A stretch of DNA of 64,000 bases from Argopecten irradians (Eukaryota > Mollusca > Bivalvia > Pectinida > Pectinidae): NCBI RefSeq assembly GCF_041381155.1, contig NC_091137.1, positions 16,239,765 through 16,303,764 of the forward strand, written 5' to 3'. Below, in pieces: positions 5,181 to 56,360 of this stretch. The translations under genes were made by a program, and so were the position numbers. Below the pieces are notes generated by a model. The model searched no databases and was not told where the DNA came from. It was given only the letters and a program-made list of their open reading frames with translations. How positions within the stretch are numbered: the stretch's first letter is position 1; each line of letters starts with the position of its first letter.

Positions 5181-5290
5181 TGTAGCGGGATTGGACTGGG
5201 TCGATCATCGATGACCAGGTAGCTCAGTCGGTAGAGCACTCGGCTTGTGTTCTGAGGGTCCCGGGTTCAAATCCCGGTCTGGCCGCTACA
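5181..5290 (+). mobile_element. tRNA-containing element with 8-bp inverted termini, copy 1
   Basis: Begins TGTAGCGG (5181-5188) and ends CCGCTACA (5283-5290), an exact inverted pair, enclosing a whole tRNA-like cloverleaf. Copy 2 at 58810-58923 keeps the same termini, the leader containing TCGATCATCGATGACCAGG, and the tRNA. This shows a mobile family rather than a lone tRNA gene. It is short for a SINE and has no A-rich tail. Confidence 0.7.
5213..5285 (+). tRNA. tRNA-like cloverleaf, probable pseudogene
   Basis: An acceptor stem (GACCAGG with TCTGGCC, one mismatch), D arm GCTC/GAGC, anticodon stem CTCGG/CTGAG and T arm CCGGG-TTCAAAT-CCCGG can all be drawn, and A- and B-box promoters are present. 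The anticodon loop has eight bases (CTTGTGTT), so the anticodon is ambiguous: TGT (Thr) or GTG (His). The odd loop and the location inside a repeated element argue for a tRNA-derived pseudogene. Confidence 0.4.
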
Positions 5291-6030: not shown

Positions 6031-6152
6031 ATGGCACGACCAAAAGACAAACGCCCCCTCATTGAAAATGAGCGCTTCCTGTCACGTTGTGCAAAGGAGG
6101 AAGAAAGACTACGCCTGTCATTATCCACTGGGCTCAAAAAAGATATTGATAG
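6031..6152 (+). CDS. BTBD8: BTBD8 exon 1
   Basis: Starts at ATG with an upstream in-frame stop. Encodes a basic N-terminus (MARPKDKRPLIENERF...) of 40 codons, ending in phase 2 at AG|GTGATT. Confidence 0.8.
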
Positions 6153-9100
6153 GTGATTAATTAGTGCTCAAATAAATACTTTTGTCTGTGTGCTAGAGAA
6201 TCTTAATAAATATGTGCACAGAGAGGTATTGTTTTGTTTAACAACTAACATTATATTATGTTCATTAATATACAAATATTTCATGAGTTACTGTGCTCTA
6301 GTTCATAATATAAAACCCGAGCGGCGAGGTGATGGTAATCAACAATTGTGATATTGCTAAGGGCCAAAGGGCTAGTGCAATATTACATTTGTTGATTACC
6401 ATATCATCACCAAGGGGTAAATATTATGAACTAGAACACAGTAATCCATGATCTCTCACTGTTATTACAATGCTTATAATGCTCATAAATTCATAAAGTA
6501 CATGTAATTATATCATGGAGTCAAACAATTTATCGATAATGATCCGTACATGTTTTCAGAGCATGTACAATGATTTTTTTTAACTTTGATGCAGTTTATT
6601 AGACATGAATAATTTGCATTGATTTTGATTTATTTATTCTGATCATACACAGGTTGTTTGAGACAGGTCTGCACAGTGACATAACGCTAAAGTCAGGATT
6701 CCATGAAATAAAGCTTCACAAGTTCATTCTAAAAACCAGGTCAGTAATGACAAAAGTTATCAATGTAGATGTTGATTTCCTAAACAGTAGGTGGAGACCA
6801 GAATCCTAAGAAACAAAACTTCACATCATGGGGCAGGTGACAAAAACCTATTTTCATTCGTGCTGAGAATCAAACCCTCACTGGCTAGACTGAAGGCTTA
6901 TTTCTTAACCACTGTTTGAATCAATTATTACTAAAATGACCCATTGCAAAACACTTTTAAGCTTATTGAATCAGTTTCATGCTCAGATTACCAGTGATTG
7001 CAAGTTTCACTGTTTTGTGAAAGATGTAATATTTATATAAAAAGGAATGATACATATATAAAAATGAATGAGGTAGTTTTTATTTTATTGTAACCATCTG
7101 ACCCGAAGGGTCAGGATGACCTATAGTCGTCATGTTTCGTCCGTCGTCGTCCGCCGTCCGCCGTGCGCCGTGCGTTAACTTTTCACATTTTGAACTTCTT
7201 CTCAAGTTCTACCAGTGCGATTTGGCTGAAACTTGCATGAAATGATCCTGCCATGGTCCCGACAAAGTGTTGTTATTTTTCGGGTCGATCCGAAATCCAA
7301 GATGGCCGCCAAAGCCGCCATCTTGAAAACACATTTTGAACTTCTTCTCAAGTTCTACCGGTGCGATTAGGCTGAAACTTGCATGAAATGATCCTGACAT
7401 GGTCCCGACAAAGTGTTGTTATTTTTCGGGTCGATCCGAAATCCAAGATGGCCGCCACAGCCGCCATCTTGAAAATACATTTTGAACTTCTTCTCAAGTT
7501 CTACCGGTGCAATTAGGCTGAAACTTGCATGAAATGATCCTGACATGGTCCCGACAAAGTGTTGTTACTTTTCGGGTCGATCCGAAATCCAAGATGGCCG
7601 CCACAGCCGCCATCTTGAAAACACATTTTGAACTTCTTCTCAAGTTCTACCGGTGCGATTTGGCTGAAACTTGCATGAAATGATCCTGACATGGTCCCGA
7701 CAAAGTGTTGTTATTTTTCGGGTCGATCCGAAATCCAAGATGGCCGCCAAAGCCGCCATCTTGAAAGCACATTTTGAACTTCTTCTCAAGTTCTACTGGT
7801 GCGATTTGGCTGAAACTTGCATGAAATGATCCTGACATGGTCCCGACAAAGTGTTGTTATTTTTCGGGTCGATCCGTAATCCAAGATGGCCGCCACAGCC
7901 GCCATCTTGAAAACACATTTTGAACTTCTTCTCAAGTTCTACCAGTGCGATTTGGCTGAAACTTGCATGAAATGATCCTGACATGGTCCCGACAAAGTGT
8001 TGTTATTTTTCGGGTCGATCCGAAATCCAAGATGGCCGCCACAGCCGCCATCTTGAAAACACATTTTGAACTTCTTCTCAAGTTCTACCAGTGCGATTTG
8101 GCTGAAACTTGCATGAAATGATCCTGACATGGTCCCGACAAAGTGTTGTTATTTTTCGGGTCAATCCGAAAACCAAGATGGCCGCCACAGCCGCCATCTT
8201 TAAAACACATTTTGAACTTCTTCTCAAGTTCTACCAGTGCGATTTGGCTGAAACTTGCATGAAATGATCCTGACATGGTCCCGACAAAGTGTTGTTATTT
8301 TTCGGGTCAATCCGAAAACCAAGATGGCCGCCACAGCCGCCATCTTTAAAACACATTTTGAACTTCTTCTCAAGTTCTACCAGTGCGATTTGGCTGAAAC
8401 TTGCATGAAATGATCCTGACATGGTCCCGACAAAGTGTTGTTACATCTCTGGTTGATCCCAAATCGAAGATGGCTACCATGACACTATATCTAATTAACT
8501 TCCTACATGTTAAGGCCCTTTGGCCTCTTGTTTGAAAGAAAATTTGTTGAAAGAAATTGAAAATGATCCTGACATGGTCACGACAAAGTGACACCATATG
8601 AAATTAAATTTACTATTGCCAAGGCAGTCAGATGACCGTTAAGGCCCTTTGGGCCTCTTGTTATTTTATTGTAACCAATTTCATCATGCCTGGAATTTCA
8701 TTGCGATTTTTATATTTCTGATGGTGTTCTAAGCAGCTTGTCTTCTAAGCTAGATCATCTTAAATCTAATTAAGGCAATATTTGATTACAATTGAAATCT
8801 TTCCAAGTAAAAAATTGTAATGTACATGTATGTTATTCAAATCTGGTAGTCCCAAAAGTTAAAAATACATGTACTGTAGCTATTCCATGGAAAATAATTA
8901 CAGATGCTGAATAAGTTTTTAATGCAGATACTATATTAAACATACTTTTCATCTCAATTTAGTCAATTTACAAAAGCTAAAAATCATGCTGTTTGATGAA
9001 ATGAATCACCAAAACATGTAGCCATAGCCTTCCATTCTATATAACTTGCTTGCTAGTTATCAATTGATTATCTAAATCATTACAGGAGTCTGGAGATCTT

Positions 9101-12100
9101 CAACAGATTACATGAGGTGTGTACCGAGGCAGGAGGGGACATACTTGTGCTCCCAGAGTGGGTCAAGGTCACTGCCCTGAAGAATGCACTTAGGTAAACA
9201 ACTTTTCAATTAATCCTAATTAAGCCTCTGGTTGTTCAATGAGGCTAACTGTTATAATTACCATCCATGATTTTAAACTGTATTCAATATAATCAAAGAT
9301 ACTAATGAAACTGCTTTCTGTATCAAAACTGATACCTTCCTCAAATGAATTTTACATAATCAATGAATCTATACAACACACTGACTGATTGTGTTACATC
9401 ATTGTGTATTTGTAGACATCTATACAACACCCTGACTATGATTGTGTTACATCATTGTGTATTTGTAGACATCTATACAACACACTGACTATGATTGTGT
9501 TACATCATTGTGTATTTGTAGACATCTATACAACACACTGACTATGATTGTGTAACATCATTGTGTATTTGTAGACATCTATACAACACACTGACTATGA
9601 TTGTGTTACATCATTGTGTATTTGTAGACATCTATACAACACCTGACTATGATTGTGTTACATCATTGTGTATTTGTAGACATCTATACAACACCCTGAC
9701 TATGATTGTGTTACATCAGTGTGTATTTGTAGACATCTATACAACACCTGACTATGATTGTGTTACATCAGTGTGTATTTGTAGACTCTATACAACACCT
9801 GACTATGATTGTGTACTCATGTGTATTTGTAGACATCTATACAACACCTGACTATGATTGTGTTACATCATTGTGTATTTGTAGACATCTATACAACACC
9901 ACTGACTATGATTGTGTTACATCATTGTGTATTTGTAGACATCTATACAACACCCTGACTATGATTGTGTTACATCAGTGTGTATTTGTAGACATCTATA
10001 CAACACCATGACTATGATTGTGTTACATCATTGTGTATTTGTAGACATCTATACAACACCATGACTATGATTGTGTTACATCATTGTGTATTTGTAGACA
10101 TCTATACAACACCTGACTATGATTGTGTTACATCATTGTGTATTTGTAGACATCTATACAACACTGACTATGATTGTGTTACATCATTGTGTATTTGTAG
10201 ACATCTATACAACACTGACTATGATTGTGTTACATCATTGTGTATTTGTAGACATCTATACAACACTGACTATGATTGTGTTACATCATTGTGTATTTGT
10301 AGACATCTATACAACACTGACTATGATTGTGTTACATCATTGTGTATTTGTAGACATCTATACAACACACTGACTATGATTGTGTTACATCATTGTGTAT
10401 TTGTAGACATCTATACAACACTCTGACTATGATTGTGTTACATCATTGTGTATTTGTAGACATCTATACAACACTCTGACTATGATTGTGTTACATCATT
10501 GTGTATTTGTAGACATCTATACAACACCATGACTATGATTGTGTTACATCATTGTGTATTTGTAGACATCTATACAACACTCTGACTATGATTGTGTTAC
10601 ATCATTGTGTATTTGTAGACATCTATACAACACCCTGACTATGATTGTGTTACATCATTGTGTATTTGTAGACATCTATACAACACCCTGACTATGATTG
10701 TGTTACATCAGTGTGTATTTGTAGACATCTATACAACACCATGACTATGATTGTGTTACATCATTGTGTATTTGTAGACATCTATACAACACACTGACTA
10801 TGATTGTGTTACATCATTGTGTATTTGTAGACATCTATACAACACCCTGACTATGATTGTGTTACATCATTGTGTATTTGTAGACATCTATACAACACCC
10901 TGACTATGATTGTGTTACATCATTGTGTATTTGTAGACATCTATACAACACCTACTTGATTTGACTGATATGATTGTGTAACATCATTGTGTATTTGTAG
11001 ACATCTATACAACACTCTGACTATGATTGTGTTACATCATTGTGTATTTGTAGACATCTATACAACACACTGACTATGATTGTGTTACATCATTGTGTAT
11101 TTGTAGACATCTATACAACACTCTGACTATGATTGTGTTACATCATTGTGTATTTGTAGACATCTATACAACACACTGACTATGATTGTGTTACATCATT
11201 GTGTATTTGTAGACATCTATACAACACCCTGACTATGATTGTGTTACATCATTGTGTATTTGTAGACATCTATACAACACCCTGACTATGATTGTGTTAC
11301 ATCATTGTGTATTTGTAGACATCTATACAACACCCTGACTATGATTGTGTTACATCATTGTGTATTTGTAGACATCTATACAACACACTGACTATGATTG
11401 TGTTACATCATTGTGTATTTGTAGACATCTATACAACACTCTGACTATGATTGTGTTACATCATTGTGTATTTGTAGACATCTATACAACACCATGACTA
11501 TGATTGTGTTACATCATTGTGTATTTGTAGACATCTATACAACACCCTGACTATGATTGTGTTACATCATTGTGTATTTGTAGACATCTATACAACACCT
11601 GACTATGATTGTGTTACATCATTGTGTATTTGTAGACATCTATACAACACCTGACTATGATTGTGTTACATCATTGTGTATTTGTAGACATCTATACAAC
11701 ACACTGACTATGATTGTGTTACATCATTGTGTATTTGTAGACATCTATACAACACACTGACTATGATTGTGTTACATCATTGTGTATTTGTAGACATCTA
11801 TACAACACCCTGACTATGATTGTGTTACATCATTGTGTATTTGTAGACATCTATACAACACCCTGACTATGATTGTGTTACATCATTGTGTATTTGTAGA
11901 CATCTATACAACACTCTGACTATGATTGTGTTACATCATTGTGTATTTGTAGACATCTATACAACACACTGACTATGATTGTGTTACATCATTGTGTATT
12001 TGTAGACATCTATACAACACCTGACTATGATTGTGTTACATCATTGTGTATTTGTAGACATCTATACAACACACTGACTATGATTGTGTTACATCATTGT

Positions 12101-15100
12101 GTATTTGTAGACATCTATACAACACCCTGACTATGATTGTGTTACATCATTGTGTATTTGTAGACATCTATACAACACCCTGACTATGATTGTGTTACAT
12201 CATTGTGTATTTGTAGACATCTATACAACACCTGACTATGATTGTGTTACATCATTGTGTATTTGTAGACATCTATACAACACACCATGACTATGATTGT
12301 GTTACATCATTGTGTATTTGTAGAGACATCTATACAACACCCTGACTATGATTGTGTTACATCATTGTGTATTTGTAGACATCTATACAACACACCTGAC
12401 TATGATTGTGTTACATCATTGTGTATTTGTAGACATCTATACAACACCTGACTATGATTGTGTTACATCATTGTGTATTTGTAGACATCTATACAACACT
12501 GTGTATTTGTAGACATCTATACAACACTCTGACTATGATTGTGTTACATCATTGTGTATTTGTAGACATCTATACAACACTCTGACTATGATTGTGTTAC
12601 ATCATTGTGTATTTGTAGACATCTATACAACACTCTGACTATGATTGTGTTACATCATTGTGTATTTGTAGACATCTATACAACATCCTGACTATGATTG
12701 TGTTACATCATTGTGTATTTGTAGACATCTATACAACACACTGACTATGATTGTGTTACATCATTGTGTATTTGTAGACATCTATACAACACCATGACTA
12801 TGATTGTGTTACATCATTGTGTATTTGTAGACATCTATACAACACCCTGACTATGATTGTGTTACATCATTGTGTATTTGTAGACATCTATACAACACCT
12901 GACTATGATTGTGTTACATCATTGTGTATTTGTAGACATCTATACAACACCTGACTATGATTGTGTTACATCATTGTGTATTTGTAGACATCTATACAAC
13001 ACCTGACTATGATTGTGTTACATCATTGTGTATTTGTAGACATCTATACAACACCCTGACTATGATTGTGTTACATCATTGTGTATTTGTAGACATCTAT
13101 ACAACACCTGACTATGATTGTGTTACATCATTGTGTATTTGTAGACATCTATACAAACACTCTGACTATGATTGTGTTACATCATTGTGTATTTGTAGAC
13201 ATCTATACAACACTGACTATGATTGTGTTACATCATTGTGTATTTGTAGACATCTATACAACACTCTGACTATGATTGTGTTACATCATTGTGTATTTGT
13301 AGACATCTATACAACACTGACTATGATTGTGTTACATCATTGTGTATTTGTAGACATCTATACAACACCTGACTATGATTGTGTTACATCATTGTGTATT
13401 TGTAGACATCTATACAACACCCTGACTATGATTGTGTTACATCATTGTGTATTTGTAGACATCTATACAACACCTGACTATGATTGTGTTACATCATTGT
13501 GTATTTGTAGACATCTATACAACACCTGACTATGATTGTGTTACATCATTGTGTATTTGTAGACATCTATACAACACCTGACTATGATTGTGTTACATCA
13601 TTGTGTATTTGTAGACATCTATACAACACCTGACTATGATTGTGTTACATCATTGTGTATTTGTAGACATCTATACAACACCCTGACTATGATTGTGTTA
13701 CATCATTGTGTATTTGTAGACATCTATACAACACTGACTTTGATTGTGTTACATCATTGTGTATTTGTAGACATCTATACAACACACTGACTATGATTGT
13801 GTTACATCATTGTGTATTTGTAGACATCTATACAACACTACGTGACTCATTGATCATTGTGTGTTACATCATTGTGTATTTGTAGACATCTATACAACAC
13901 ACTGACTATGATTGTGTTACATCATTGTGTATTTGTAGACATCTATACAACACACTGACTATGATTGTGTTACATCATTGTGTATTTGTAGACATCTATA
14001 CAACACACTGACTATGATTGTGTTACATCATTGTGTATTTGTAGACATCTATACAACACACTGACTATGATTGTGTTACATCATTGTGTATTTGTAGACA
14101 TCTATACAACACCTGACTATGATTGTGTTACATCATTGTGTATTTGTAGACATCTATACAACACACTGACTATGATTGTGTTACATCAGTGTGTATTTGT
14201 AGACATCTATACAACACACTGACTTGATTGTGTTACATCATTGTGTATTTGTAGACATCTATACAACACTGACTATGATTGTGTTACATCAGTGTGTATT
14301 TGTAGACATCTATACAAACACTGACTATGATTGTGTTACATCAGTGTGTATTTGTAGACATCTATACAACACACTGACTATGATTGTGTTACATCAGTGT
14401 GTATTTGTAGACATCTATACAACACTGACTATGATTGTGTTACATCATTGTGTATTTGTAGACATCTATACAACACACTGACTATGATTGTGTTACATCA
14501 GTGTGTATTTGTAGACATCTATACAACACTGACTATGATTGTGTTACATCATTGTGTATTTGTAGACATCTATACAACACTGACTATGATTGTGTTACAT
14601 CAGTGTGTATATTTGTAGACATCTATACAAACACTGACTATGATTGTGTTACATCATTGTGTATTTGTAGACATCTATACAACACACTGACTATGATTGT
14701 GTTACATCATTGTGTATTTGTAGACATCTATACAACACACTGACTATGATTGTGTTACATCATTGTGTATTTGTAGACATCTATACAACACCCTGACTAT
14801 GATTGTGTTACATCATTGTGTATTTGTAGACATCTATACAACACTGACTATGATTGTGTTATATCAGTGTGTATTTGTAGACATCTATACAACACTCTGA
14901 CTATGATTGTGTAACATCATTGTGTATTTGTAGACATCTATACAACACTCTGACTATGATTGTGTTACATCATTGTGTATTTGTAGACATCTATACAACA
15001 CACTGACTATGATTGTGTTACATCATTGTGTATTTGTAGACATCTATACAACACCCTGACTATGATTGTGTTACATCATTGTGTATTTGTAGACATCTAT

Positions 15101-18100
15101 ACAACACCTGACTATGATTGTGTTACATCAGTGTGTATTTGTAGACATCTATACACACACCTGACTATGATTGTGTTACATCATTGTGTATTTGTAGACA
15201 TCTATACAACACCTGACTTGATTGTGTTACATCAGTGTGTATTTGTATACATCTATACAACACCTGACTATGATTGTGTTACATCAGTGTGTATTTGTAG
15301 ACATCTATACAACACCTGACTGACTATGATTGTGTGTTACATCATGTGTATTTGTAGACATCTATACAAACCTGACTATGATTGTGTTACATCATGTGTA
15401 TTTGTAGACATCTATACAACACACTGACTATGATTGTGTTACATCATTGTGTATTTGTAGACATCTATACAAACACCCTGACTATGATTGTGTTACATCA
15501 TTGTGTATTTGTAGACATCTATACAACACACTTGATTGTGTTACATCATTGTGTATTTGTAGACATCTATACAACACCCTGACTATGATTGTGTGTTACA
15601 TCATTGTGTATTTGTAGACATCTATACAACACCTGACTTTGATTGTGTTACATCAGTGTGTATTTGTATACATCTATACAACATCCTGACTATGATTGTG
15701 TTACATCATGTGTATTTGTAACATCTATACAACACCCTGACTATGATTGTGTTACCGACATCAGTGTGTATTTGTAGACATCTATACAACACCACTGACT
15801 ATGATTGTGTTACATCATTGTGTATTTGTAGTACATCTATACAACACCTGACTATGATTGTGTTACATCATTGTGTATTTGTAGACATCTATACAACACC
15901 CTGACTATGATTGTGTTACATCAGTGTGTATTCCCAAATTCCCAAACACGACCCGGTGTGAAAATGTGAAAGTATGGCTTCATCCCGGCGCCATTTTCCT
16001 ACACATGTGTGTACGATGTTACAAACAACTGCATCAGTGCATGTCGGCACGTTGAAGTTAAATCACGATCGTTTGCTCATTTTGCTGAGACAAATGTTCG
16101 TGAATTCTTCTGTATTTGAACGAATTTGATATGTAAACGTTTGCAGTTAATTTTAAATAGGACTGAGTCTGAACGGCGATCGTCCTTCCGATTCACGGCG
16201 ATTGTTTCACGTGTTTACTAAGACGGAGATGTAGTTGTGATCGTAAACAATCACCGAATTTGAATATTTTAAAATAACTATACGATTATGTAAAACTTCT
16301 GGATTAAAATGACATTGCTTATGATGTTGTTTCTTCGTTTTGATTCATTGGTGAATGTCCGCGTGACTCTTGCAAAAATTGTGCGTTTCCCTTTAGACAA
16401 ACGTTACAACTGCCCTAGTATTGTTCATATTTTGTCATAACATTTGATTTAATTTTACTCCTACGTCTTCATTATTATCATAAATACTTGAACATCTTGC
16501 TATTACCCATCTGTCATACGACTGTTACAACAATGACAGGACATTAAAAAATCCAAGATGGCGACCTCATAGATCGATGTTATCAGGCGGGTTGTCCGCA
16601 AATAAGACCCCCCACCACTTTTGACCTTTATTTCTTCTCTGGGAGGGGGGTCTTATTTGCGGTGAAATACGGTACATCAGTGTGTATTTGTAGACATCTA
16701 TACAACACACTGACTATGATTGTGTTACATCATTGTGTATTTGTAGACATCTATACAACACCCTGACTATCCAGCCTTTACTGAATGAGGACTCGGACAC
16801 AGATGTAGGTATAGTACAGGACGTTATAGGACTTCTAACATTCCATGAACCGCCTCAACCTACACAAGACTCTGAAAATACGGAGGAATATCAAGCAAAC
16901 TCCGATTCTGTGGATAAATTGTCAGATCAAATTGACTGTGACAAAAATAATGATGAAAATGCAAGCAATATAGACAATCCAGAGGGAATTTGTGATGGAA
17001 ATGAATCTGATCAGACCCCATGTTCTAAATCTATACATACTGAATCAACTAGTCCAAGTGTGAACGATGATGCTGCCACGGCTGCTGCCTGTTCTTCCAT
17101 TGAAAAATCAGATCAGCTTAGTGAATCAGAAAAGGAAAAAATAGAACCTGACATACATACGAATGGTGACAAGAATATAGATAGTTCTGAAATCGACATA
17201 GATGAAAACAAACTTGCAGAAAATCGTGTATATCCTGATTTACAGCAAGAGTTGGAGGCGAAAAATTCCAGTAAAGAAGATGATTCTTCACTTCAGGACC
17301 TGATCAAGATGACCTATGACCTCAGTATACCCTATAAAGCCTGTGACTCCCTAGGGGAATGTCTCCTTAGAGGATACCTGAAGGAGCTGGACCATGACTG
17401 TATCATATCCATCTCAGGAGCCCATTTTAAGGCACATAAGTGAGTACAGCAGCCTGTTCAAATTATTGACCTCCCAGTAATACAGCAGTCGTATTAATAC
17501 ATACATGTATAGGTACATGTAGCATGGGTGAGGCTCATCATTTAACTATTCAACTAGACCTTACCTGGTACATGTAGTTTTTTTTATCTGATTTCTTACT
17601 GTGTTTATAATTTTTATTTCACTTAGGCCTACCTGAATTAAACCACTTATTAATAATTGTCCCTGTTATGTTTAAGTTGACCTCTGTGCCTGTTTGACCT
17701 CACAAGACCAAGTTTAACCTCATTTGACCATGTATGAACCAGTTTGACCTCATATTAGGCCCTGTGTGAATTATTTTGACCTCATTTGATCCCAATGGAC
17801 CATGTGTGATATGCCAGTGTATCCTGATGCTCTCACAGGATCCAAATTTGTCACACTTGACCATTATTCTGACCAATGGTCACTTTCAATAATCATTTGA
17901 TTCTATATTTACAGGTGTGTATTATCTGCCAGGTGTGACTACTTTGCTGCCATGTTGGGAGGATCGTGGATGGAAAGTGATGCCCAAGAGATTTGCCTTG
18001 AAGGGTCTGTTCATGTTTTTCTACATTTTTGTTTTGTCTCTGCATATATATAGAAATACTGTCCCATTAGAATGTTATCAAGCATAAGTATACTGTAGGC

Positions 18101-21100
18101 TTTTGTATTTTACAGTTATTTCTAGTTTGTTATGTATTTTTATATCATCTGACTGGAAGGGTCAAGATAACCTATACTAATCATCCTTTGTGCACCGTGC
18201 GTAAACTTTCCATTCAAACGACTTTTTCTCAATAATCGAAAGGCCAAGAGTACTCATATTGGGCATAAAAGTCCTAGATATGTAATATAGGGCCTGTAGC
18301 ATACGGAGATGAAAGGCTACCAAGTTTGTTCAAATACATTTCCTTGACCTTTATTATAGGTCACAGAGGTCAAATAGGCTAAAATCTTAAAACAATTACT
18401 TGTCAATAACAATAAGAGTCCTAGAGACCTGATATTGGGCCTGTGGCATGCTGGGATACCAAATTTGTTCAAATAAATAACAGTGACCTTTATTCTTTAT
18501 TTTAAGGTCAAAATGGTCGAATAGGTCAACAGTTCTATTGTATATTGTATTAATAATCAAATGACTGTTAAGGCCCTTTGAACCTCTTGATTCGATAGCA
18601 GTTGATTGTTTTCTTAAATAGACCTGCTTGTGGTAATTCTGTAGGTTATTTTCCAGAATGAGCCCTCCTGTGATGGAGCAGGTGTTACTGTACTTGTATG
18701 GGGGAGTCCTGGACCTGGAGGCCTGCTGTCCTATAGGGGAGATTGTCATGGTAGCCGACATGTACGGTCTACATGGACTCAATTCTATTGTCACTTACAA
18801 CCTAAAGAAAACTTACTGTCATTTCTTTCACAAGGTAACATGTTTATGATATGATTGAGAATAAATGGAAGGATACAAAAGCAATGAATTAGTTTGAAAC
18901 AAGTATTAAGCAAACACAATTACCATATATAGACTTCTGAATTGATTTTCTTTGAGTTAATAATTGGCATCTCTCTCCATTTTACAAACAACAATATTTG
19001 ATCTACAGTTATTTTTAGCTGCAAGCCATCAAAAAACTTAACCACGATTTGACCTACTCCAGTAATGTTAGAGGTACATATATACATGTAGCATGATGAA
19101 ACACTTTTGAAACATTAAAAGTCATTGATGGCTATGAAACAAAAAAAACAAAGCCAGCCACCATACAATCAACAGAACTACATTTGACCTTGATCTTTTT
19201 GTCTTCCTCAGCCTTGTAGTGGTTGTGAGACAGGAGTCATAGAAACACTGACCTCAGCGCTGACCTTTAACCTCTGTGAGTTACGAGACAAGTGTATAGA
19301 ATGGATCAACACCAACATGATTAAGGTTTGGAGGACCAAAGCGTTTGCCTCTCTGCCCCCTGAAGTCCTTGATTTGGTCTGTGACTCTGCAATACAACGG
19401 CTAGTGAGTCTCCTACAATTTACAGTTTGTACTGTAAATAATTTTAAAAACAATAACTGTTTAATTTAGTACCCTTCTTGGAACCAGACAGGACTGTATA
19501 TTAGTGTCGTGTCAGTCTGTCAGGCATTGTGTCCAGACTCTATTTTTAGCTCACCTGGCCTGAAGGGCCGGTGAGCTTATGTCATGGTGCGGCGTCCGTC
19601 GTCCGTCCGTCGTCCGTCCGTCCGTCGTCCGTCCGCCCGTCCGTCAACATTTCCTTTAAATCGCTACTAGTCATAGAGTACTGCATGGATTGTAACCAAA
19701 TTTGGCCACAAACATCCTTAGGGGAAGGGGAACAGGACTTGTACAAATTTTGGCTCTGACCCCACGGGGGCAGGAGGGGCGGGGCCCAATAGGGAAAATA
19801 AAGGTAAATCCTATAAATCGCTACTTGTCCTAGAGTTCTGCATGGATTGTAACCAAATTTGGCCACAAACATCCTTGGGGGAAGGGGAACAGAACTTGTA
19901 TAAATTTTGGCTCTAACCCCCTGGGGGCAGGAGGGGCGGGAGGGGTGGGGCCCAATAAGGGAAATAGAGGTAAATCCTATAAATCGCTACTTGTCCTAGA
20001 GTTCTGCATGGATTGTAACCAAATTTGGCCACAAACATCCTTGGGGGAAGGGGGAAAGAACTTGTATAAATTTTGGCTCTGACCCCCTGGGGGCAGGAGG
20101 GGCGGGGCCCAATAGGGGAAATAGAGGTAAATCCTATAAAACGCTACTTTTCCTAGAGTTCTTCATGGATTGTAACCAAATTTGGCCAAAAACATCCTTG
20201 GGGGAAGGGGAAAAACCGGGGGCAGGAGGGGCAGGGCCCAATAGGGGAAATAGAGGTAAATCCTATAAATCGCTACTTGTCCTAGAGTTCTGCATGGATT
20301 GTAACCAAATTTGGCCACAAATATCCTTGGGGGAAGGGGAACAGAACTTGTATAAATTTTGACTCTGACCCCCTGGGGGCAGGAGGGGCGGGGTCGAATA
20401 GGGAAATAAGAGGTAAATATTCAAATTTCTTCAGAAAAGAAACAATGAACCTGTATTCAGAACATGACTTGACATTACAAACCAGGTGAGCGATACAGGC
20501 CCTCTGGGCCTCTTGTTCTATACTATATGGGTCCACCTAGGACCTATATTTGACATTTGATCTTTGTTAAAGATTGCCCAGGCTGTACTTCTTATACTAT
20601 TAGGCATTGGAACTTCATACTTGGTATGCTGATAGATGTTTTGACCTTTGACTTACATACATAGAAGAAAAACCTTATCTGGACTCCAAAATTTAATATT
20701 TTCCACTGAAGCGGTGTGTCACATACCAGAATCAATCAGGGCACAGCTACCTACGTTTTCTTTTTGACTTAAATTTCAAAACAAGCTTGTTGTCTCTCTT
20801 GTCTCTCTCTCTCTCTCTCTCTCTCTCCATGACTATGAGGCACTGAAGCATTATACTATGTACATGTATGGGTATAGATGTGTCCATCTAGGTAAAGGAA
20901 AATACAACCTTATGGTACATACAGTGGGGAACTTGAATTGTTGAATTAACCTGTTTCTAATAAGGTGAAATTTACAGCATATGCATATATGTTATCATAG
21001 TCTTATGATAGATAATAGATAATATCTATGATAATTACATTTTGTGTTATTTATATTGAAGTCAATAGTGTTCTAAGCTGATGAGTTTCTCAAATTAACC

Positions 21101-24100
21101 TGAAGTCAAAATTAGTTCAAGGAGTCGCTGTCCAATTTCTTAGTAGTGCCCTAGGCGTTTATTGACTCTAATACATGACAGTACCACAATATTTCTGAGT
21201 TTTGACTCCATTGTGGATGTGTTTCAGAGTATACAATGTGTGATGGAGGTGATGTTGGACTGTCAGAAGTTGAACCGTAACATTCCGCGGCTGAAGTGGT
21301 GTGAACCTGTCCTATCGGCTGTCACCAGACTTATGGACAGTTGTATTGAGTACACAGCCAAAAAATTCATCTGTCTCCTCAACAGTGGCAAACTCAGGGA
21401 CATTGATACGGTAACAATCTCTGCTTTATTACTATCTAATTCAAATTTAAAGTGAGAGTTATTCCCCTTCCATTTTACAAACTCTTGTTTAACTTGTTCT
21501 CAGAATCCTGGTTTAGATCTCCATATGATCAATTGATATTATCTCCAAAATAAAATCTGCATATACAGAATAATCTACATCTGTGTACAGCAAAAAATCA
21601 TAATAAAAAGTAGAGAATCCACTGTGTATTGGAGATAACCCTGGAAATCATGGATTTAGTTTTGAAAAGATCTGAAAATCCAAAGTGGTCGCAGTACTAG
21701 CTATAGTGGCTCCTGATGGGGTCAAAATTTAAAAATCGTCAATGAAAATTGGTAAATTGGGATTTTTGTTGACACTCACTGAATATATATATATAATGGT
21801 CATAACTTTTGAAGAGGTCTTGAAATCCAAAATGTCACTACAAAGTTACCTAATACCTACATGTACATTAGCTTAAGGTCAACTTAAATCAGCAGGGAGG
21901 CTCCTTATTTCAGATATCAAACTATTCAAGGTTTTTTGTTAAGATGACCTTGTGTACACTGCTTCCACAGCTAATTTTAACTGACCATTCCAGGGTTCTT
22001 CATTGCTTTAGTCAAGTCAATGCAATCTTGTGTCAAGAAGGAAACATACTTTTGAAGGTCTTTGTAAAATGGATTCTAAGTACTTTTAACTACAATATAC
22101 CTGTGGTTGTTCTGGGTTTTTTTCGGTTTTTTTTAACAATGAATATGATATATAATACCATCCTGTGATGGTTTTGGTCCACAGACTCTGGCCTACCAGA
22201 TGGGGCTGTTAGAAGAGATATTTGGTACTGTGATCAGATCGCTGCCAGTTTCAGGTGCGTGCCAGGTGTTTGAACGTCTGCACGCACTCAACAAGGCGTC
22301 AACGTCAGAAGAAATGGAGCATGTTTGGAGTGAGGTTTGTTGAAAATGAAGTAATTTTTGAAGTTAATAAAATTGATTTTGACTTTGAAAAGTTAATAAG
22401 TATTTAAGTCATTTATTTTGTAAAAATTCATTGACTTCAAGGTTTTTTATTATAATAATAATGATTGCATAATGATTTTGTATTTTTATTTTCAATGTAA
22501 CAAAATAAAATATATTCTTAAATTTGTGAGTCATTACTACTATAAAAGATGTCAGTATTGAAGTTAACTCTACAGTCATTGAAATAATTTCAACTGATGT
22601 GATTTCTCTGTATTGTTATCAATAGGAGTTCTGTGCCTTTATCCGATCTCTATACAAAATGTGTGAGGACTTCATGAAGCTCCACATCCACCAGATGGCG
22701 CTTACTAAGGACTGGGATTTACTGAATAAGGAGCTTCAAACTCACCTCATGGAAAGTGAGTCGAAACTGATCCTTTGATAATTACACACTCTTACTGTGT
22801 CATTGTATTTCTATTGGAAGGCTCTGGGTTCTGTCCCCTGACCGAGACACACCAAAGTCTATATAATGTAGTTTCTGCTCCCGCTTAGTGCTCAGCAAAT
22901 AGGGAGTGGGATGACTGGTATGCCCGTTGTCAGTATAATGTGATCGCGTGGGGTGTGTTGCTTGGTGTCTTTGGCGGCATGCTTCAGTGATATAGCACTA
23001 TAAGAAGGGCAACAGTTCCACTATACAAGAAGACTCAACACGAACATATCGCAGTCTCCCAAAACATGCACCTCGTACTTCACACATGCTACACGCTGCA
23101 TACATGGAAGGTCGTCCTTACATGATCCTGGCTGTTAATAGGACGTTAAAATAATCAAACAAACAAACAATTGTTATCTTTATATCATGTGACCATGTAG
23201 GAGTTCTAGATGTTTGTCTTAGTAAAGAAATGGAAAAAATGCCTTGATAAGTTGACAATCTGTTTTTGCAAAAAATTATTATAATCTTACCTGTCTTATA
23301 TTTCAAATGTCAAACATTTTTTATTCCCAGATTCCAGCTTTGTTGTATTAGACATGTCTGTTAAAGAGAAGAAAATGGGACCTAGATTTGCACGAATGCA
23401 AAAGGTAAATTCAGTTGAATGTCAATATTAACTGTTAATTCAAACAAAAAGCAAAATTTTGGCAATGTCTCTTTTAAATGAACTCTAAGAAAGATCTAAA
23501 TCGCAGATTTGATAATACATGACAGTTGAAGCAGAAACACAAATGATGAAGGAAGACAATTTTATGATTTGTGCCTTATCCAGGCTTCGAACTCATGACA
23601 TATATCACCCAATTGCGTAGCCAAACACACTTGTGGCATATACATGTAACACCACTTGTGTAACAGCCATGAACTATTGTGTATACGTGTCAGATTTATC
23701 TTAATACCTTGATATATAATGTTAACCATGTCCGTCCTTTCATGTTAAGACAGAGGGATCTATGTGTAAAACACATTTCTATTTAATGAATTATTTTTTT
23801 GTACAGAAAAAAACTGAAGTTCAGGAGCAAAAAACAACACTTAAAGCTCGGCCTATATTAACAAGTGACCAGAATCGTATATTGTCTGGACAAAGTAAAC
23901 TGCGTGGAAAGTCACCTGAAGGTAAAACCGATATTAAGTTGGCAGGGAAGTCTTCACTTCAGAGTCAGTCTAAAGGAGGGAGTAAGGTGTCACAGAGCAA
24001 ACCTGGGAAATCTACTGTAGTCACCACCTCAAGGTCACTACGGTCTGTACAGAGGGGAGGAAGACCCAGCCATCCAACTTGTTCTGATGGAAAACACTGT

Positions 24101-24655
24101 GAGAGTTCTTCAAAAGGAAATGAAAGTGAAGACACAAATATTGAATCTCCGACACAATCTGGTGTCACAGGGAACAATGACCTTGACAGAGTTTGTCTAC
24201 CAGGCCAGAGCTTCTTTGGAGTTTCTGGTGAAGACCAAGAAACATATTATTCAAATATGTCAGCTGCTGAAGCTCACATGTCAGATCAGACCACTGAAGA
24301 ACAGAATTTGAATCTTAATGCTCAAACGTCACTTAATGCTGAAGGTCACTGTTCAGCAATTTTACCAAATGATGAAGGTCAGAAATCAGCAACATCATTG
24401 GATGATGAAACTCAGAGATCTCTAACATCACCATATATGGAAGGTGAAGGGTCAGTGATATCACTGAATGCTGGAGGTCAAGGGTCAGCAATGTCACTGA
24501 ATGCTGAAGGTCAGTGTGAGGAGGAGTATGATGGAGAAATATTGAACTCGGTGCCACATAACATACAAATCACTGCTGTGCTACCAGATCCTATAGTATT
24601 CAATGTAGAACTTATCCCAATTCTTAATGTCTCATTTTATGAAAATGCTTCATAA
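6031..24655 (+). CDS. BTBD8: BTB/POZ domain protein BTBD8 (12 coding exons, 951 aa)
   Basis: Twelve exons with GT-AG introns join without a frame break: 6031-6152, 6653-6739, 9086-9193, 16747-17439, 17915-18004, 18657-18834, 19212-19403, 21228-21410, 22185-22334, 22626-22755, 23331-23404, 23807-24655. A first, short BTB fold covers about residues 41-115, followed by an acidic Ser/Asp/Glu-rich insert to about 300. A second, canonical BTB follows at about 315-430 (AHKCVLSARCDYFAAMLGG, then MVADMYGLHGL), then a BACK-like helical region to about 650 and a low-complexity tail. The second BTB and the YCHFFHKP junction closely resemble vertebrate BTBD8. Known for the family: the long vertebrate product (APache) binds the clathrin adaptor AP-2 and acts in synaptic-vesicle recycling; transfer of that role to this protein is inference. 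Intron 3 is filled by a minisatellite built from the exon-4 acceptor, and introns 2, 5 and 7 carry HINE-like elements. Confidence 0.88.
6283..6451. mobile_element. Fold-back MITE in BTBD8 intron 1
   Basis: The 23-bp arms at 6290-6312 and 6422-6444 are exact inverse complements. The match extends with few mismatches to CATG ends at 6283 and 6451. Inner arms (GATGGTAATCAACAA with TTGTTGATTACCAT) make most of the element palindromic. Confidence 0.7.
6653..6739 (+). CDS. BTBD8: BTBD8 exon 2
   Basis: Acceptor ACACAG, donor AG|GTCAGT. Encodes LFETGLHSDITLKSG followed by FHEIKLHKFILKTR, the start of the first BTB fold (SDI.L and LHKFIL are the usual landmarks). Phase 2 at both ends. Confidence 0.85.
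6860..6925 (-). repeat. Decayed tRNA-like sequence in BTBD8 intron 2
   Basis: On the - strand, AGTGGTTAAG resembles a Leu/Ser-type D arm and GGGTTTGATTCTC resembles a B box. No cloverleaf closes. Probably an old tRNA-derived SINE head. Confidence 0.3.
7080..7096. repeat. 17-bp direct repeat, left flank of element 7097-8660
   Basis: TTATTTTATTGTAACCA occurs here and again at 8661-8677, exactly at the two ends of the HINE-like element. It is consistent with a target-site duplication. Confidence 0.75.
7097..8660 (+). mobile_element. Helentron/HINE-like non-autonomous element with tandem core
   Basis: It starts TCTGACCCGAAGGGTCAGG and has a GTCCGTCGTCCGCCG simple-sequence stretch. A 146-bp tandem array follows, then an inverted copy of the start (GTCAGATGACC). 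It ends GTTAAGGCCCTTTGGGCC plus TCTTG, a hairpin next to the 3' end. Subterminal inverted repeats, a tandem core and a 3' hairpin are features of HINE/DINE-1-type elements and resemble bivalve 'pearl' elements (family knowledge). A second, internal copy of the tail stands at about 8508-8531, suggesting nesting or a composite. Confidence 0.7.
7187..8500. repeat. 146-bp tandem array, eight units plus one diverged partial
   Basis: ATTTTGAACTTCTTCTCAAG recurs at 7187, 7333, 7479, 7625, 7771, 7917, 8063, 8209 and 8355, an exact 146-bp period. Each unit contains the palindromic pair AAGATGGC...GCCATCTT. Minus-strand frames of 63 codons recur with the unit, but 146 is not divisible by three and they are not genes. 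The last unit decays after about 8442. Confidence 0.9.
8661..8677. repeat. 17-bp direct repeat, right flank of element 7097-8660
   Basis: Exact second copy of the 17-bp sequence at 7080-7096, starting immediately after the CCTCTTG terminus. Confidence 0.75.
9086..9193 (+). CDS. BTBD8: BTBD8 exon 3
   Basis: Acceptor TTACAG, donor TTAG|GTAAAC. Encodes SLEIFNRLHEVCTEAGGDI then LVLPEWVKVTALKNAL, continuing BTB 1. Phase 2 out, so the next codon (AG|A, Arg) is completed by exon 4. Confidence 0.85.
9362..15932 (+). repeat. Minisatellite of 51-53 bp units made from the BTBD8 exon-4 splice acceptor
   Basis: The unit runs ACATCTATACAACACCCTGA-CTATGATTGTGTTACATCATT-GTGTATTTGTAG, with small indels in the ACACCCTGAC stretch and a CATTG/CAGTG variant. 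Dividing the length by about 52 gives some 125 units. The unit's end (GTGTATTTGTAG) is the exon-4 acceptor and its beginning is the first 24 bases of exon 4, so exon edge and intron end were amplified together. The unit contains no stop in two frames, giving fortuitous frames of up to 190 codons. The array is most degenerate at its right end. Confidence 0.93.
15917..15932. repeat. 16-bp flanking duplication, left copy
   Basis: TACATCAGTGTGTATT is repeated at 16673-16688, on the other side of the 740-bp insertion. Both copies carry the minority CAGTG variant of the array unit, supporting duplication of one target. Confidence 0.6.
15933..16672. mobile_element. 740-bp insertion interrupting the splice-acceptor array
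   Basis: Unrelated sequence with minisatellite on both sides. Near its right end is an inverted pair, CCGCAAATAAGACCCCCC and GGGGGGTCTTATTTGCGG, forming a strong hairpin just before the junction GAAATACGG. No protein is encoded. With 16-bp flanking duplications it looks like a non-autonomous transposable element; I cannot name the family. Confidence 0.65.
16673..16770 (+). repeat. Last units of the splice-acceptor array, ending in the true exon-4 acceptor
   Basis: After the insertion the array resumes with one partial and one complete unit. The final TTTGTAG at 16740-16746 is the functional acceptor, followed by the original of the repeated exon edge. Splicing to the previous acceptor (exon start at 16694) would add 53 bases and reach a TGA within the exon-4 edge. 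Confidence 0.85.
16747..17439 (+). CDS. BTBD8: BTBD8 exon 4: end of BTB 1, acidic insert, start of BTB 2
   Basis: Begins with the repeated edge (RHLYNTLTIQ) and ends at CACATAA|GTGAGT. About 180 residues rich in Asp, Glu, Ser and Asn follow the edge, then YKACDSLGECLLRGYLKELD and DCIISISGAHFKAHK, the opening of BTB 2. Phase 2 in, phase 2 out. Confidence 0.88.
17440..17914 (+). other. BTBD8 intron 4 with TTTGACCTC-type motifs
   Basis: Between about 17680 and 17880 the words GACCTC, TTTGACC and TTTGACCTCA recur about seven times on the + strand. They resemble nuclear-receptor half-sites (AGGTCA on the - strand) but may simply be a decayed minisatellite. Confidence 0.35.
17915..18004 (+). CDS. 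BTBD8: BTBD8 exon 5
   Basis: Acceptor TTTACAG, donor AAGG|GTCTGT. Encodes CVLSARCDYFAAMLGGSW and MESDAQEICLE, the BTB-2 core, close to the vertebrate BTBD8 segment. Confidence 0.9.
18146..18589 (+). mobile_element. HINE-like element in BTBD8 intron 5 (short relative of 7097-8660)
   Basis: Starts ATCTGACTGGAAGGGTCAAG and ends AAATGACTGTTAAGGCCC...CCTCTTG, with the same termini and tail as the 7097 element. It has no tandem core, and I see no flanking duplication. Confidence 0.6.
18657..18834 (+). CDS. BTBD8: BTBD8 exon 6
   Basis: Acceptor TTTTCCAG, donor CAAG|GTAACA. Encodes MSPPVMEQVLLYLYGGVLDL and MVADMYGLHGLNSIV..YCHFFHK, the end of BTB 2. An earlier AG at 18645 would run straight into a stop. 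Confidence 0.9.
19212..19403 (+). CDS. BTBD8: BTBD8 exon 7
   Basis: Acceptor CCTCAG, donor CTA|GTGAGT. 64 whole codons (PCSGCETGVIETL ... LPPEVLDLVCDSAIQRL) with the BACK-like helical pattern following BTB 2. Confidence 0.88.
19548..20515 (+). mobile_element. HINE-like element, second family, with a tandem core of about 157 bp
   Basis: Starts AGCTCACCTGGCCTGAAGGG, then a GTCCGTCGTCCGTCCG stretch. Five tandem units follow, with ATGGATTGTAACCAAATTTG at 19685, 19842, 20008, 20165 and 20294. The inverse of the start (CCAGGTGAGC) comes next, and it ends GGCCCTCTGGGCCTCTTG. The sequence differs from the 7097 family but the layout and tail are shared. It lies in intron 7. Confidence 0.7.
20802..20827. 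repeat. (TC)n microsatellite
   Basis: About 13 TC dinucleotides in BTBD8 intron 7. Confidence 0.95.
21228..21410 (+). CDS. BTBD8: BTBD8 exon 8
   Basis: Acceptor TTTCAG, donor ACG|GTAACA. 61 whole codons, SIQCVMEVMLDCQKLNRNI through LLNSGKLRDIDT. Matches the helical region after BACK in BTBD8. Confidence 0.87.
22185..22334 (+). CDS. BTBD8: BTBD8 exon 9
   Basis: Acceptor TCCACAG, donor GAG|GTTTGT. 50 whole codons starting TLAYQMGLLEEIFGTVIRSL. Confidence 0.85.
22626..22755 (+). CDS. BTBD8: BTBD8 exon 10
   Basis: Acceptor CAATAG, donor GGAAA|GTGAGT. Encodes EFCAFIRSLYKMCEDFMKLH through LQTHLME, ending in phase 1. Confidence 0.83.
22820..23171 (+). repeat. Interspersed repeat, copy 2, with CAAA-type tail
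   Basis: Same family as 3367-3562, but more complete. It ends GGACGTTAAAATAATC followed by (AAAC)n, as expected of a retroposed SINE-like element. It lies in BTBD8 intron 10. I see no clear pol III boxes, so the class is uncertain. Confidence 0.6.
23331..23404 (+). CDS. BTBD8: BTBD8 exon 11
   Basis: Acceptor TTCCCAG, donor AAAG|GTAAAT. Encodes SSFVVLDMSVKEKKMGPRF then ARMQK. Confidence 0.83.
23585..23660 (-). repeat. Possible decayed tRNA-like fragment
   Basis: On the - strand a B-box-like GAGTTCGAAGCCTGG is present without a convincing cloverleaf. Probably an old SINE head in intron 11. Confidence 0.25.
23807..24655 (+). CDS. BTBD8: BTBD8 exon 12, low-complexity C-terminal tail and stop
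   Basis: Acceptor TTTTGTACAG. 282 codons plus TAA. A basic Lys/Ser/Gln-rich start (KKTEVQEQKTTLKARPIL) leads to an acidic part with degenerate repeats of about 14 residues around AEGQ/DEGQ (NAEGHCSAI, NDEGQKSAT, NAGGQGSAM, NAEGQCEEE). Vertebrate long BTBD8 has a much longer tail, so this may be a shorter form or one splice version. Confidence 0.75.
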   Translation, partial: KKTEVQEQKTTLKARPILTSDQNRILSGQSKLRGKSPEGKTDIKLAGKSSLQSQSKGGSKVSQSKPGKSTVVTTSRSLRSVQRGGRPSHPTCSDGKHCESSSKGNESEDTNIESPTQSGVTGNNDLDRVCLPGQSFFGVSGEDQETYYSNMSAAEAHMSDQTTEEQNLNLNAQTSLNAEGHCSAILPNDEGQKSATSLDDETQRSLTSPYMEGEGSVISLNAGGQGSAMSLNAEGQCEEEYDGEILNSVPHNIQITAVLPDPIVFNVELIPILNVSFYENAS

Positions 24656-28273: not shown

Positions 28274-29353
28274 GGTTTAAATGTATACATTATACTTCAT
28301 GTAGTTGTATGGCATTTTTTGAATTCTTTTATATATTGCACTGCTGAATTTATCATTGATATTTAGATTCTTACAGTTATTGTAAAACAGATAGGTGTAT
28401 AAGCAGTGACATGACATTGTGTTATTTACATGTTTGTAGACTTACAGTTGTATGTTCACTGGGTTCAAGAATTCTTCATCCATTGAACAGTTCACAGGGT
28501 CATTTAATGATGTGTCAGATTTAAGAGATAGAGGTAAGCTGGGGTTCCCAAAAAAAAGCACGACCTTTACAGTCAGTTTAAACTTGCTAGCCTAATATAT
28601 TTGTAAACTTAGCCACATAGTCATTGTGGCCTATCGAACCAGTTAATATATCCCAATGCTTTGTCCAGTTTTCATCCAGCTATCATTTTTGGCTTTTTGA
28701 ACATTTTTTTCCCCCAAAATTAAGAGACCACTAGACTACATGTAGAGGCCTGAATCGTGCTTGAATGAAATGCAGTTTGTTTATATAATCTTGTATGTAT
28801 TAGTCAGTGATTTAGTTGTGAGCCAATATGGTTTCTTGTTAATTGATATTTTGTTTATATGAAGTTGTTTGTTGTTTATTTTTATATTGTACAATTCATT
28901 TTCTAGCTATAATTTTATAGAGACACACTTTCCAATCAGAAAAAATATATTTTTGTTGTTGTAATTTAACTTATTATATAAGTTGTTCTGAAGAACTCCT
29001 TGTTTTTGCCAATGATTCTGTTAGATTTCTATTTAGACTGTTGTTGTTCTTTTCTTTATTTTTTAGCTAATATAATATTTGAGAGATAGCAGGTCTTCTG
29101 TACGTAGTGCACCTCCATTGAGTCTACATTTTTGTGAGTTACTTTAGAGTATACAGTATCATGTACAGATTACTGTAAATCCAAGTTTGATGTTGCTGAA
29201 CATTTACATATGTATTTGAAATCTTTTTTCATATTCTTAAAAAGTTCTAACCCCATATTGAATATCTTATTTCAGGTTTAAGGAGCCAATAAACTTATTC
29301 AGCAAATTGATGATTTCACCATCTTTATTTTTCCTATAAGGTACAAACTTGCC
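28274..29353. other. Intergenic, nothing recognised
   Basis: AT-rich sequence up to the edge of the large satellite. An AATAAA stands near 29288 with no gene attached. Confidence 0.45.
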
Positions 29354-52894: not shown

Positions 52895-53751
52895 CTAATA
52901 AACACGCTCTACATGCAGGTCAGGGTTGTGTGGGGGTCGTTGGACATTCTGATTCTGTGCGTGTGGCATTGGCCTATAACCTGGTCGCCTGGGTGGTGCC
53001 AGGAACTCGAACATGGACGTCTTGTGCTGTGATAACATTTCAGACAAGTCACTAGGCATTGGATCTGTCCAGAAGAAATCGTGGTTCAAAGCGCTGTCAC
53101 TGTCCAGTCGCTTTGAGGGGTCAAGGGTTAAAAGTTTGTCTAGGAGGTCAAGAGCATACTGATCCTTTACATATGCTTTAAGTCTCTCTTTCACTTTACG
53201 CTTTTGACCTTGAGGAAGATCCAGCTGTGCAAATAGATCCAGTTTATCAACATTGGGCCAAACCTCTTTAGTAACTGACCCACATAACTGACTGATCAGC
53301 TGAAGTTGATTCTGTTCTGTCTTGCCCTGCATGATGGGCGCCCGTGTCCACATTTCTGCCATGATACATCCACCACCCCACATATCAATGGGTGGTCCAT
53401 AGTTTCTCTCCCCTAGCAGCAGTTCGGGAGGCCGGTACCACAAGGTTACCACACGATTAGTGTATTTGTTGGGCTGCCCCGCCTTCTGAACACTAAAGGC
53501 CCGGGCCAGTCCAAAGTCTGCCAGCTTTAGAACACCATGTTTAGTGATGAGGATGTTGGCTGCCTTCATATCACGATGTAGAATCTTATTACTGTGGATG
53601 AAGTAGAGGCCATTAAGCAGCTGCTGCATGACCTTCTTAATCTCGCCAAGATTGAACTTCACATTAGCGTTACTCAAAAGTCCTGCCAGGTCATGTTCAC
53701 AAAACTCAAAGATCAGGAAGAAGGTGCTTTTAAATCTGTTGTACTGGGAGG
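52895..53751 (-). CDS. CDK9: CDK9 exon 4 (kinase C-lobe and tail)
   Basis: Acceptor CCTATTACAG. Encodes SQYNRFKSTFFLIFEFCEHD onward to VERVY and TAG. The frame stays open further upstream but that part is intron. Confidence 0.95.
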
Positions 53752-56244: not shown

Positions 56245-56360
56245 TTTAATCTTGAGTGTGTACACTTCCAATAAACAGGAAGTGCCTACTGCGTCATCAA
56301 ATACTGTGTAGATCGAGAAATATTAAAACCGGATGTCGTAAATGAAATCCGGATACATTG
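56245..56360 (-). promoter_or_regulatory. Probable CDK9 5' UTR and promoter with ETS-type sites
   Basis: Three ETS-like cores lie within 80 bases: CAGGAAGTG near 56277, ACCGGATGT near 56329 and ATCCGGATA near 56348. No TATA box is obvious. ETS clusters without TATA are common at housekeeping promoters, so this fits, but it is inference. Confidence 0.4.

Follow-up and report, generated by a model that had tools for sequence, protein, structure and literature searches.

A 53-base minisatellite carrying the intron 3 acceptor of BTBD8 in the scallop Argopecten irradians, with one hypervariable point per unit

Tandem arrays and duplications that carry splice sites of their host genes have been described in humans. 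According to the accessible text of two papers, a 31-bp variable number tandem repeat (VNTR) in CBS (c.1444_1467+7) spans the exon 13-intron 13 boundary and is present in 16-21 copies (PMC2630376, PMC1395315). In the 844ins68 allele of the same gene, a junction is duplicated, the distal site is strongly favored, and normal mRNA is made (PMC2630376); the sentence on 844ins68 in that paper says “donor,” while the title of the work cited there concerns 3' splice site selection. UBC and VCX3A contain arrays of dual-specific splice sites, and 792 human introns were found inside tandem repeats, as far as the accessible part of that study goes (PMC10809524). Here, we describe a related arrangement in a 64,000-nucleotide window of one assembly of Argopecten irradians (Pectinidae; contig NC_091137.1, positions 16,239,765 to 16,303,764), to which all sequence searches for repeat copies were confined. 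Intron 3 of a BTBD8 gene in this window is largely occupied by an array whose every unit joins the end of that intron to the beginning of exon 4 (coordinates are in Table 1).

Of the 7,553 bases of the intron, 87% belong to the array, and 173 bases of other intron sequence precede it. Tandem Repeats Finder (TRF) reported 123.9 copies with a period of 53, and cyclic alignment to the consensus over 9367-15936, which ran four bases into an insertion described below, yielded 125 pieces: 124 near-full units and one piece of 28 bases at 12485, which was excluded from the unit counts. The 24 bases that begin exon 4 open the unit, and 29 bases matching the end of intron 3 complete it; 121 of 125 pieces end in TAG, and 114 of 125 contain a CTGAC. 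The 12-base acceptor GTGTATTTGTAG occurs exactly 122 times on the + strand of the window, every time within intron 3, with 120 occurrences in the array and 2 after the insertion; 102 of the 121 gaps between them measure 51-53 bases, and the smallest is 28. The array is far beyond chance. These counts bear out the first-pass annotation of this DNA, which had reported about 125 copies of the intron's own acceptor in units built from the intron 3 end and 24 exon bases. Its unit lengths of 51, 52, and 53 bases hold for 13, 27, and 69 near-full units, respectively, and not for the 15 others. It had also taken the array to run unbroken up to exon 4, and this proved incorrect.

An insertion of 740 bases, probably a transposable element, separates the array from the last two acceptors. 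The 16-base direct repeat that flanks it, TACATCAGTGTGTATT, is as expected of a target-site duplication, though it does not prove one, as either side would be array sequence in any case. On both sides, unit column 40 has its rarer G, a base found in 16 of the 124 units, and no second copy of the insertion was present within the window.

Twelve BTBD8 exons over 6031-24655 join into a single continuous reading frame, and with exon 6 starting at 18657 the model encodes 951 amino acids, in agreement with the NCBI protein. That protein, “BTB/POZ domain-containing protein 8-like [Argopecten irradians]” (951 amino acids, 100% identity), was the best of 22 matches in a protein database search in which the 7,988 candidates with the most words in common were the only ones scored. 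In Pfam, the first 673 residues of the model matched BTB at 3.6e-20 and BACK weakly. Exons 3 and 4 join at 9193/16747 within a split Arg codon, after which exon 4 continues CAT CTA TAC AAC ACC CTG ACT ATC (R/HLYNTLTI); as had been proposed, the last unit passes into this coding sequence in phase (AG/A). The junction in the NCBI protein, R/HLYNTLTIQP, is identical to that of the model, and two other scallops have RLLYSTLTIQP. The LY pair at the exon 4 edge is kept in all 18 aligned homologues (scallops, oysters, mussels, limpets, and echinoderms, including crinoids), an alignment of related rather than independent rows from which the four weakest of the 22 matches were omitted. The exon 4 edge is therefore old coding sequence, and the array was copied from it, as the earlier description of the unit implies.

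We therefore favor, with a probability of roughly 0.72, a junction-spanning minisatellite that was duplicated across the intron 3/exon 4 boundary of scallop BTBD8, amplified, and is now spliced out as intron, the last acceptor being mostly used. A first tandem duplication across the junction would have been followed by amplification to about 125 copies, presumably through unequal exchange or slippage, and the spliceosome would remove the whole array while mostly taking the last acceptor. That acceptor is probably favored by bordering a real exon with enhancers and a donor, whereas upstream copies lack a donor to define an exon. The words AGGT, GTRAGT, GGTRA, and GTATG are all absent from 9367-15936, so the units should not readily be spliced in as separate exons. 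The protein annotated by NCBI carries the junction of the last acceptor, and, at this level of evidence, a normal protein with the conserved exon edge requires that site. Among the cases compared here, the closest precedent for such a choice is CBS 844ins68. Leakage to upstream acceptors would give early stops: each of the 121 upstream sites with the exact 12-mer leads to a stop 6-163 codons beyond exon 3, within the added stretch for 120 of them and in exon 4 for the penultimate site at 16693, and the resulting transcripts would probably undergo mRNA decay. Use of 16693 adds 53 bases and, on reading the sequence, meets a TGA; both this and the premature stops from upstream sites had been anticipated by the first-pass annotation. 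No regulatory role for the array would need to be assumed.

The real acceptor has pyrimidines at 10 of 16 positions, and the gene's ten other acceptors have 9-13. A strict yTnAy motif with its A at 18-45 nucleotides from the last acceptor is found only as CTGAC at 33 nucleotides, within the exon-derived part of the preceding unit; a looser GTTAC lies at 19 nucleotides. Among the 122 acceptors, CTGAC at 33 nucleotides is the sole strict match for 102, the real one included, and 8 have none. The branch point would then lie at this CTGAC, and intron 3 may now depend on the array, that is, on copied exon sequence, for its branch point.

Four points weigh against this account. The leftmost unit begins within the exon-derived part, a start not expected from simple duplication alone; the NCBI gene model may have been predicted, not built from reads spanning the junction; exon definition across an exon of 693 bases is an atypical case; and two of the ten other BTBD8 introns lack a strict branch-point match, making the motif a weak indicator.

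An alternative is that the array acts as a field of decoy or poison acceptors: exon 3 would be partly captured upstream, the stop-bearing transcripts would be destroyed, and array length would set BTBD8 output. The 121 upstream sites do share the real acceptor's 12-mer (itself the criterion by which they were counted), all of them lead to early stops, and most have the same single CTGAC as the real site. The near-identity of the copies, however, is explained by homogenization and gives no sign of selection on splicing. Moreover, at the site one unit upstream, 16693, the insertion has taken the place of the unit's CTGAC, ATGAT, and GTTAC, leaving that acceptor just a CTTAT at 38 nucleotides, which comes from the insertion. 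The other 120 acceptors lie at least 862 bases before the real one. For a single hypothetical read-through protein, no match was obtained at E 0.001 among 6 candidates, a result of little weight given that such forms are rarely annotated. Tuning of BTBD8 by the array is possible, but we consider a decoy function unlikely and prefer removal of the array as intron with predominant use of the last acceptor.

Variation within the array is concentrated at one point, which the first-pass annotation had overlooked. Outside columns 13-17, units are 99% identical to the consensus, whereas substitutions and deletions affect 107 of 620 cells in these columns and 47 of 5,952 elsewhere (124 units; Fisher odds ratio 26, with cells that are not independent). 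This spot, at AACAC/TGAC, has 18 alleles and a heterozygosity of 0.84; the highest value for any column outside it is 0.28. Insertions are less focused, with 12 unit-columns in columns 10-18 and 15 in the other 44 columns. Columns 10-18 alone account for the length of 40 of the 55 off-length units, and the 51/52/53 phase is therefore mostly the product of one spot. Larger lesions are also found there. By eye in the unit list, the three largest before 15091 (fillers in units 10937 and 13824 and a 25-base deletion in unit 12485) start right after AACAC or one base on. Lesions near the spot recur in units 15301 and 15515, within the ragged stretch 15091-15936, and lesions of at least 2 bases lie away from it in units 9367, 12269, 14566, and 15721. 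The order of variants gave no indication of block duplications, the longest repeated block being 5 units and within shuffle expectation.

A tentative explanation, which we hold to be doubtful, is that AACAC/TGAC, immediately 5' of the branch-point-like CTGAC, is a weak point that is broken recurrently in each unit and healed by end joining, also driving amplification of the acceptor. Recurrent breakage with end joining would leave mixed scars of 1-3 bases, fillers, and a 25-base deletion, all from one place. If so, the array would document repeated breaks at one site, with repair scars seen accumulating at a single base position in germline sequence and setting most of the 51/52/53 phase. Two other causes were considered and rejected. 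Hairpin formation has no basis in predicted DNA folding of one unit, two units, or an opposite-strand stretch (z = 0.01, 0.59, and 1.02), which was unremarkable. Copying via a branched lariat RNA does not fit a candidate branch A (column 20) that is unchanged in 124 of 124 units, with the variation 3-5 bases upstream.

Errors of assembly, in copy number or in the unit variants, are a less likely explanation still. Short-unit arrays are difficult to assemble, and the 16 units of the ragged stretch are 2.9% off consensus outside the core, against 0.5% in the preceding 108 units. Yet neighboring units share their allele at the hypervariable spot in 33 of 123 pairs, where shuffles gave 18.4 +/- 3.8 (P = 0.00025), a clustering unlike random error that points to inheritance rather than read error. 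A second, larger array in the same window, with a 63-base unit, showed 6 variant bases in all over 248 units; it is a lenient control because the comparison covered only units whose selection required an exact 15-mer and exact 63-base spacing. That a pre-existing intronic satellite supplied the exon edge, exon 4 starting as exonized satellite, has in its favor that the array far exceeds the edge in size, but is close to refuted by the alignment of the edge residues from scallops to echinoderms and by the lack of a convincing match to the unit elsewhere in the window with 9367-16780 masked (BLAST, best E 0.72).

Table 1. Positions, within the 64,000-nucleotide window, of the features in and around BTBD8 intron 3
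Feature	Positions	Strand	Basis
BTBD8 exon 3, donor AG/GTAAAC	9086..9193	+	gene model; NCBI protein agrees
BTBD8 intron 3, 7,553 bases	9194..16746	+	gene model
Minisatellite of 53-base period (124 near-full units, one unit of 28 bases)	9367..15932	+	TRF, acceptor count, cyclic alignment
Left copy of 16-base direct repeat	15917..15932	+	repeat comparison
Insertion inside array, 740 bases, probably a transposable element	15933..16672	.	array alignment, window search
Right copy of 16-base direct repeat	16673..16688	+	repeat comparison
Last base of penultimate acceptor; sequence farther upstream is the insertion's	16693	+	acceptor list, window search, branch-point scan
Last full array unit, CTGAC with A 33 nucleotides before last base of real acceptor	16694..16746	+	sequence, branch-point scan
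BTBD8 exon 4, beginning with the 24 bases (16747-16770) that form the exon part of the array unit	16747..17439	+	gene model, NCBI protein, homologue alignment

Several other features of the window were observed. The last BTBD8 exon contains a 33-base coding repeat (24440-24513; TRF); in the Mizuhopecten protein, a similar peptide is repeated more often. Past the BTBD8 stop codon, a candidate extra exon at 28421-28533, absent from the annotated protein, has an open frame with AG before it and GTAAGC after it (by eye). The 63-base array lies farther downstream of the stop codon (29354-50365; about 330 copies by TRF); its unit contains CACAG/GTGTCC and CTAATGTTTTAG, and thus that array too carries splice-site-like words. 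Introns 2 and 7 hold tandem units of 146 and about 157 bases at 7184-8474 and 19652-20341 (TRF), inside what appear by eye to be dispersed mobile elements with GGCCTCTTGTT-like ends. A tRNA-like sequence of undefined anticodon at 5213-5286 is possibly part of a short interspersed nuclear element. Next to BTBD8, open frames for a protein kinase, presumably resembling CDK9, occupy 52895-56322 on the minus strand.

The BTBD8 array offers an example of a repeat that grew past a coding boundary while sparing the gene, and a natural test of spliceosome choice among about 120 near-identical acceptors, compared with the two copies in CBS 844ins68. It does not belong to several known kinds of alternative site. 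With no AGGT and no GTRAGT in 9367-15936 and sites that read TAG/ACA, these are not dual-specific sites of the UBC type; the absence of AGGT likewise excludes recursive (ratchet) splicing points, and the spacing of the acceptors excludes tandem acceptors of the NAGNAG type. Generic literature searches on splice-site arrays, whose coverage left out most subscription literature, found no acceptor array of such size, which is weak evidence. The earlier statement that a self-copied splice-site array is not a described class was nevertheless too strong, since arrays and duplications carrying splice sites are already described in the accessible literature (the CBS 31-bp VNTR, CBS 844ins68, UBC, and VCX3A).

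In UBC and VCX3A, as in the scallop, each unit of a tandem repeat carries a splice site. As far as their available description goes, however, those sites are AGGT sites that can serve either as donor or as acceptor, and coding units remain after splicing, whereas the scallop units provide only acceptors, have no AGGT, and break the protein when used upstream. The 844ins68 allele resembles the choice proposed here in that the distal copied site wins, but by the same partial accounts it has two copies only and no array. Nearest in structure is the CBS VNTR, where copies act as alternative donors. Like its units (24 exon and 7 intron bases by their published coordinates), the scallop unit includes a boundary between exon and intron of its host gene, and many tandem copies adjoin the real junction: 124 near-full units, the 740-base insertion, and one full unit touching exon 4. 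From what the available text gives, the CBS repeat lies on the donor side, with 31 bases and 16-21 copies; the scallop repeat lies on the acceptor side, with 53 bases (24 exon and 29 intron), about 125 copies, and an insertion. The scallop array is thus a larger, acceptor-side variant of known junction-spanning minisatellites, and the hypervariable point is its oddest feature.
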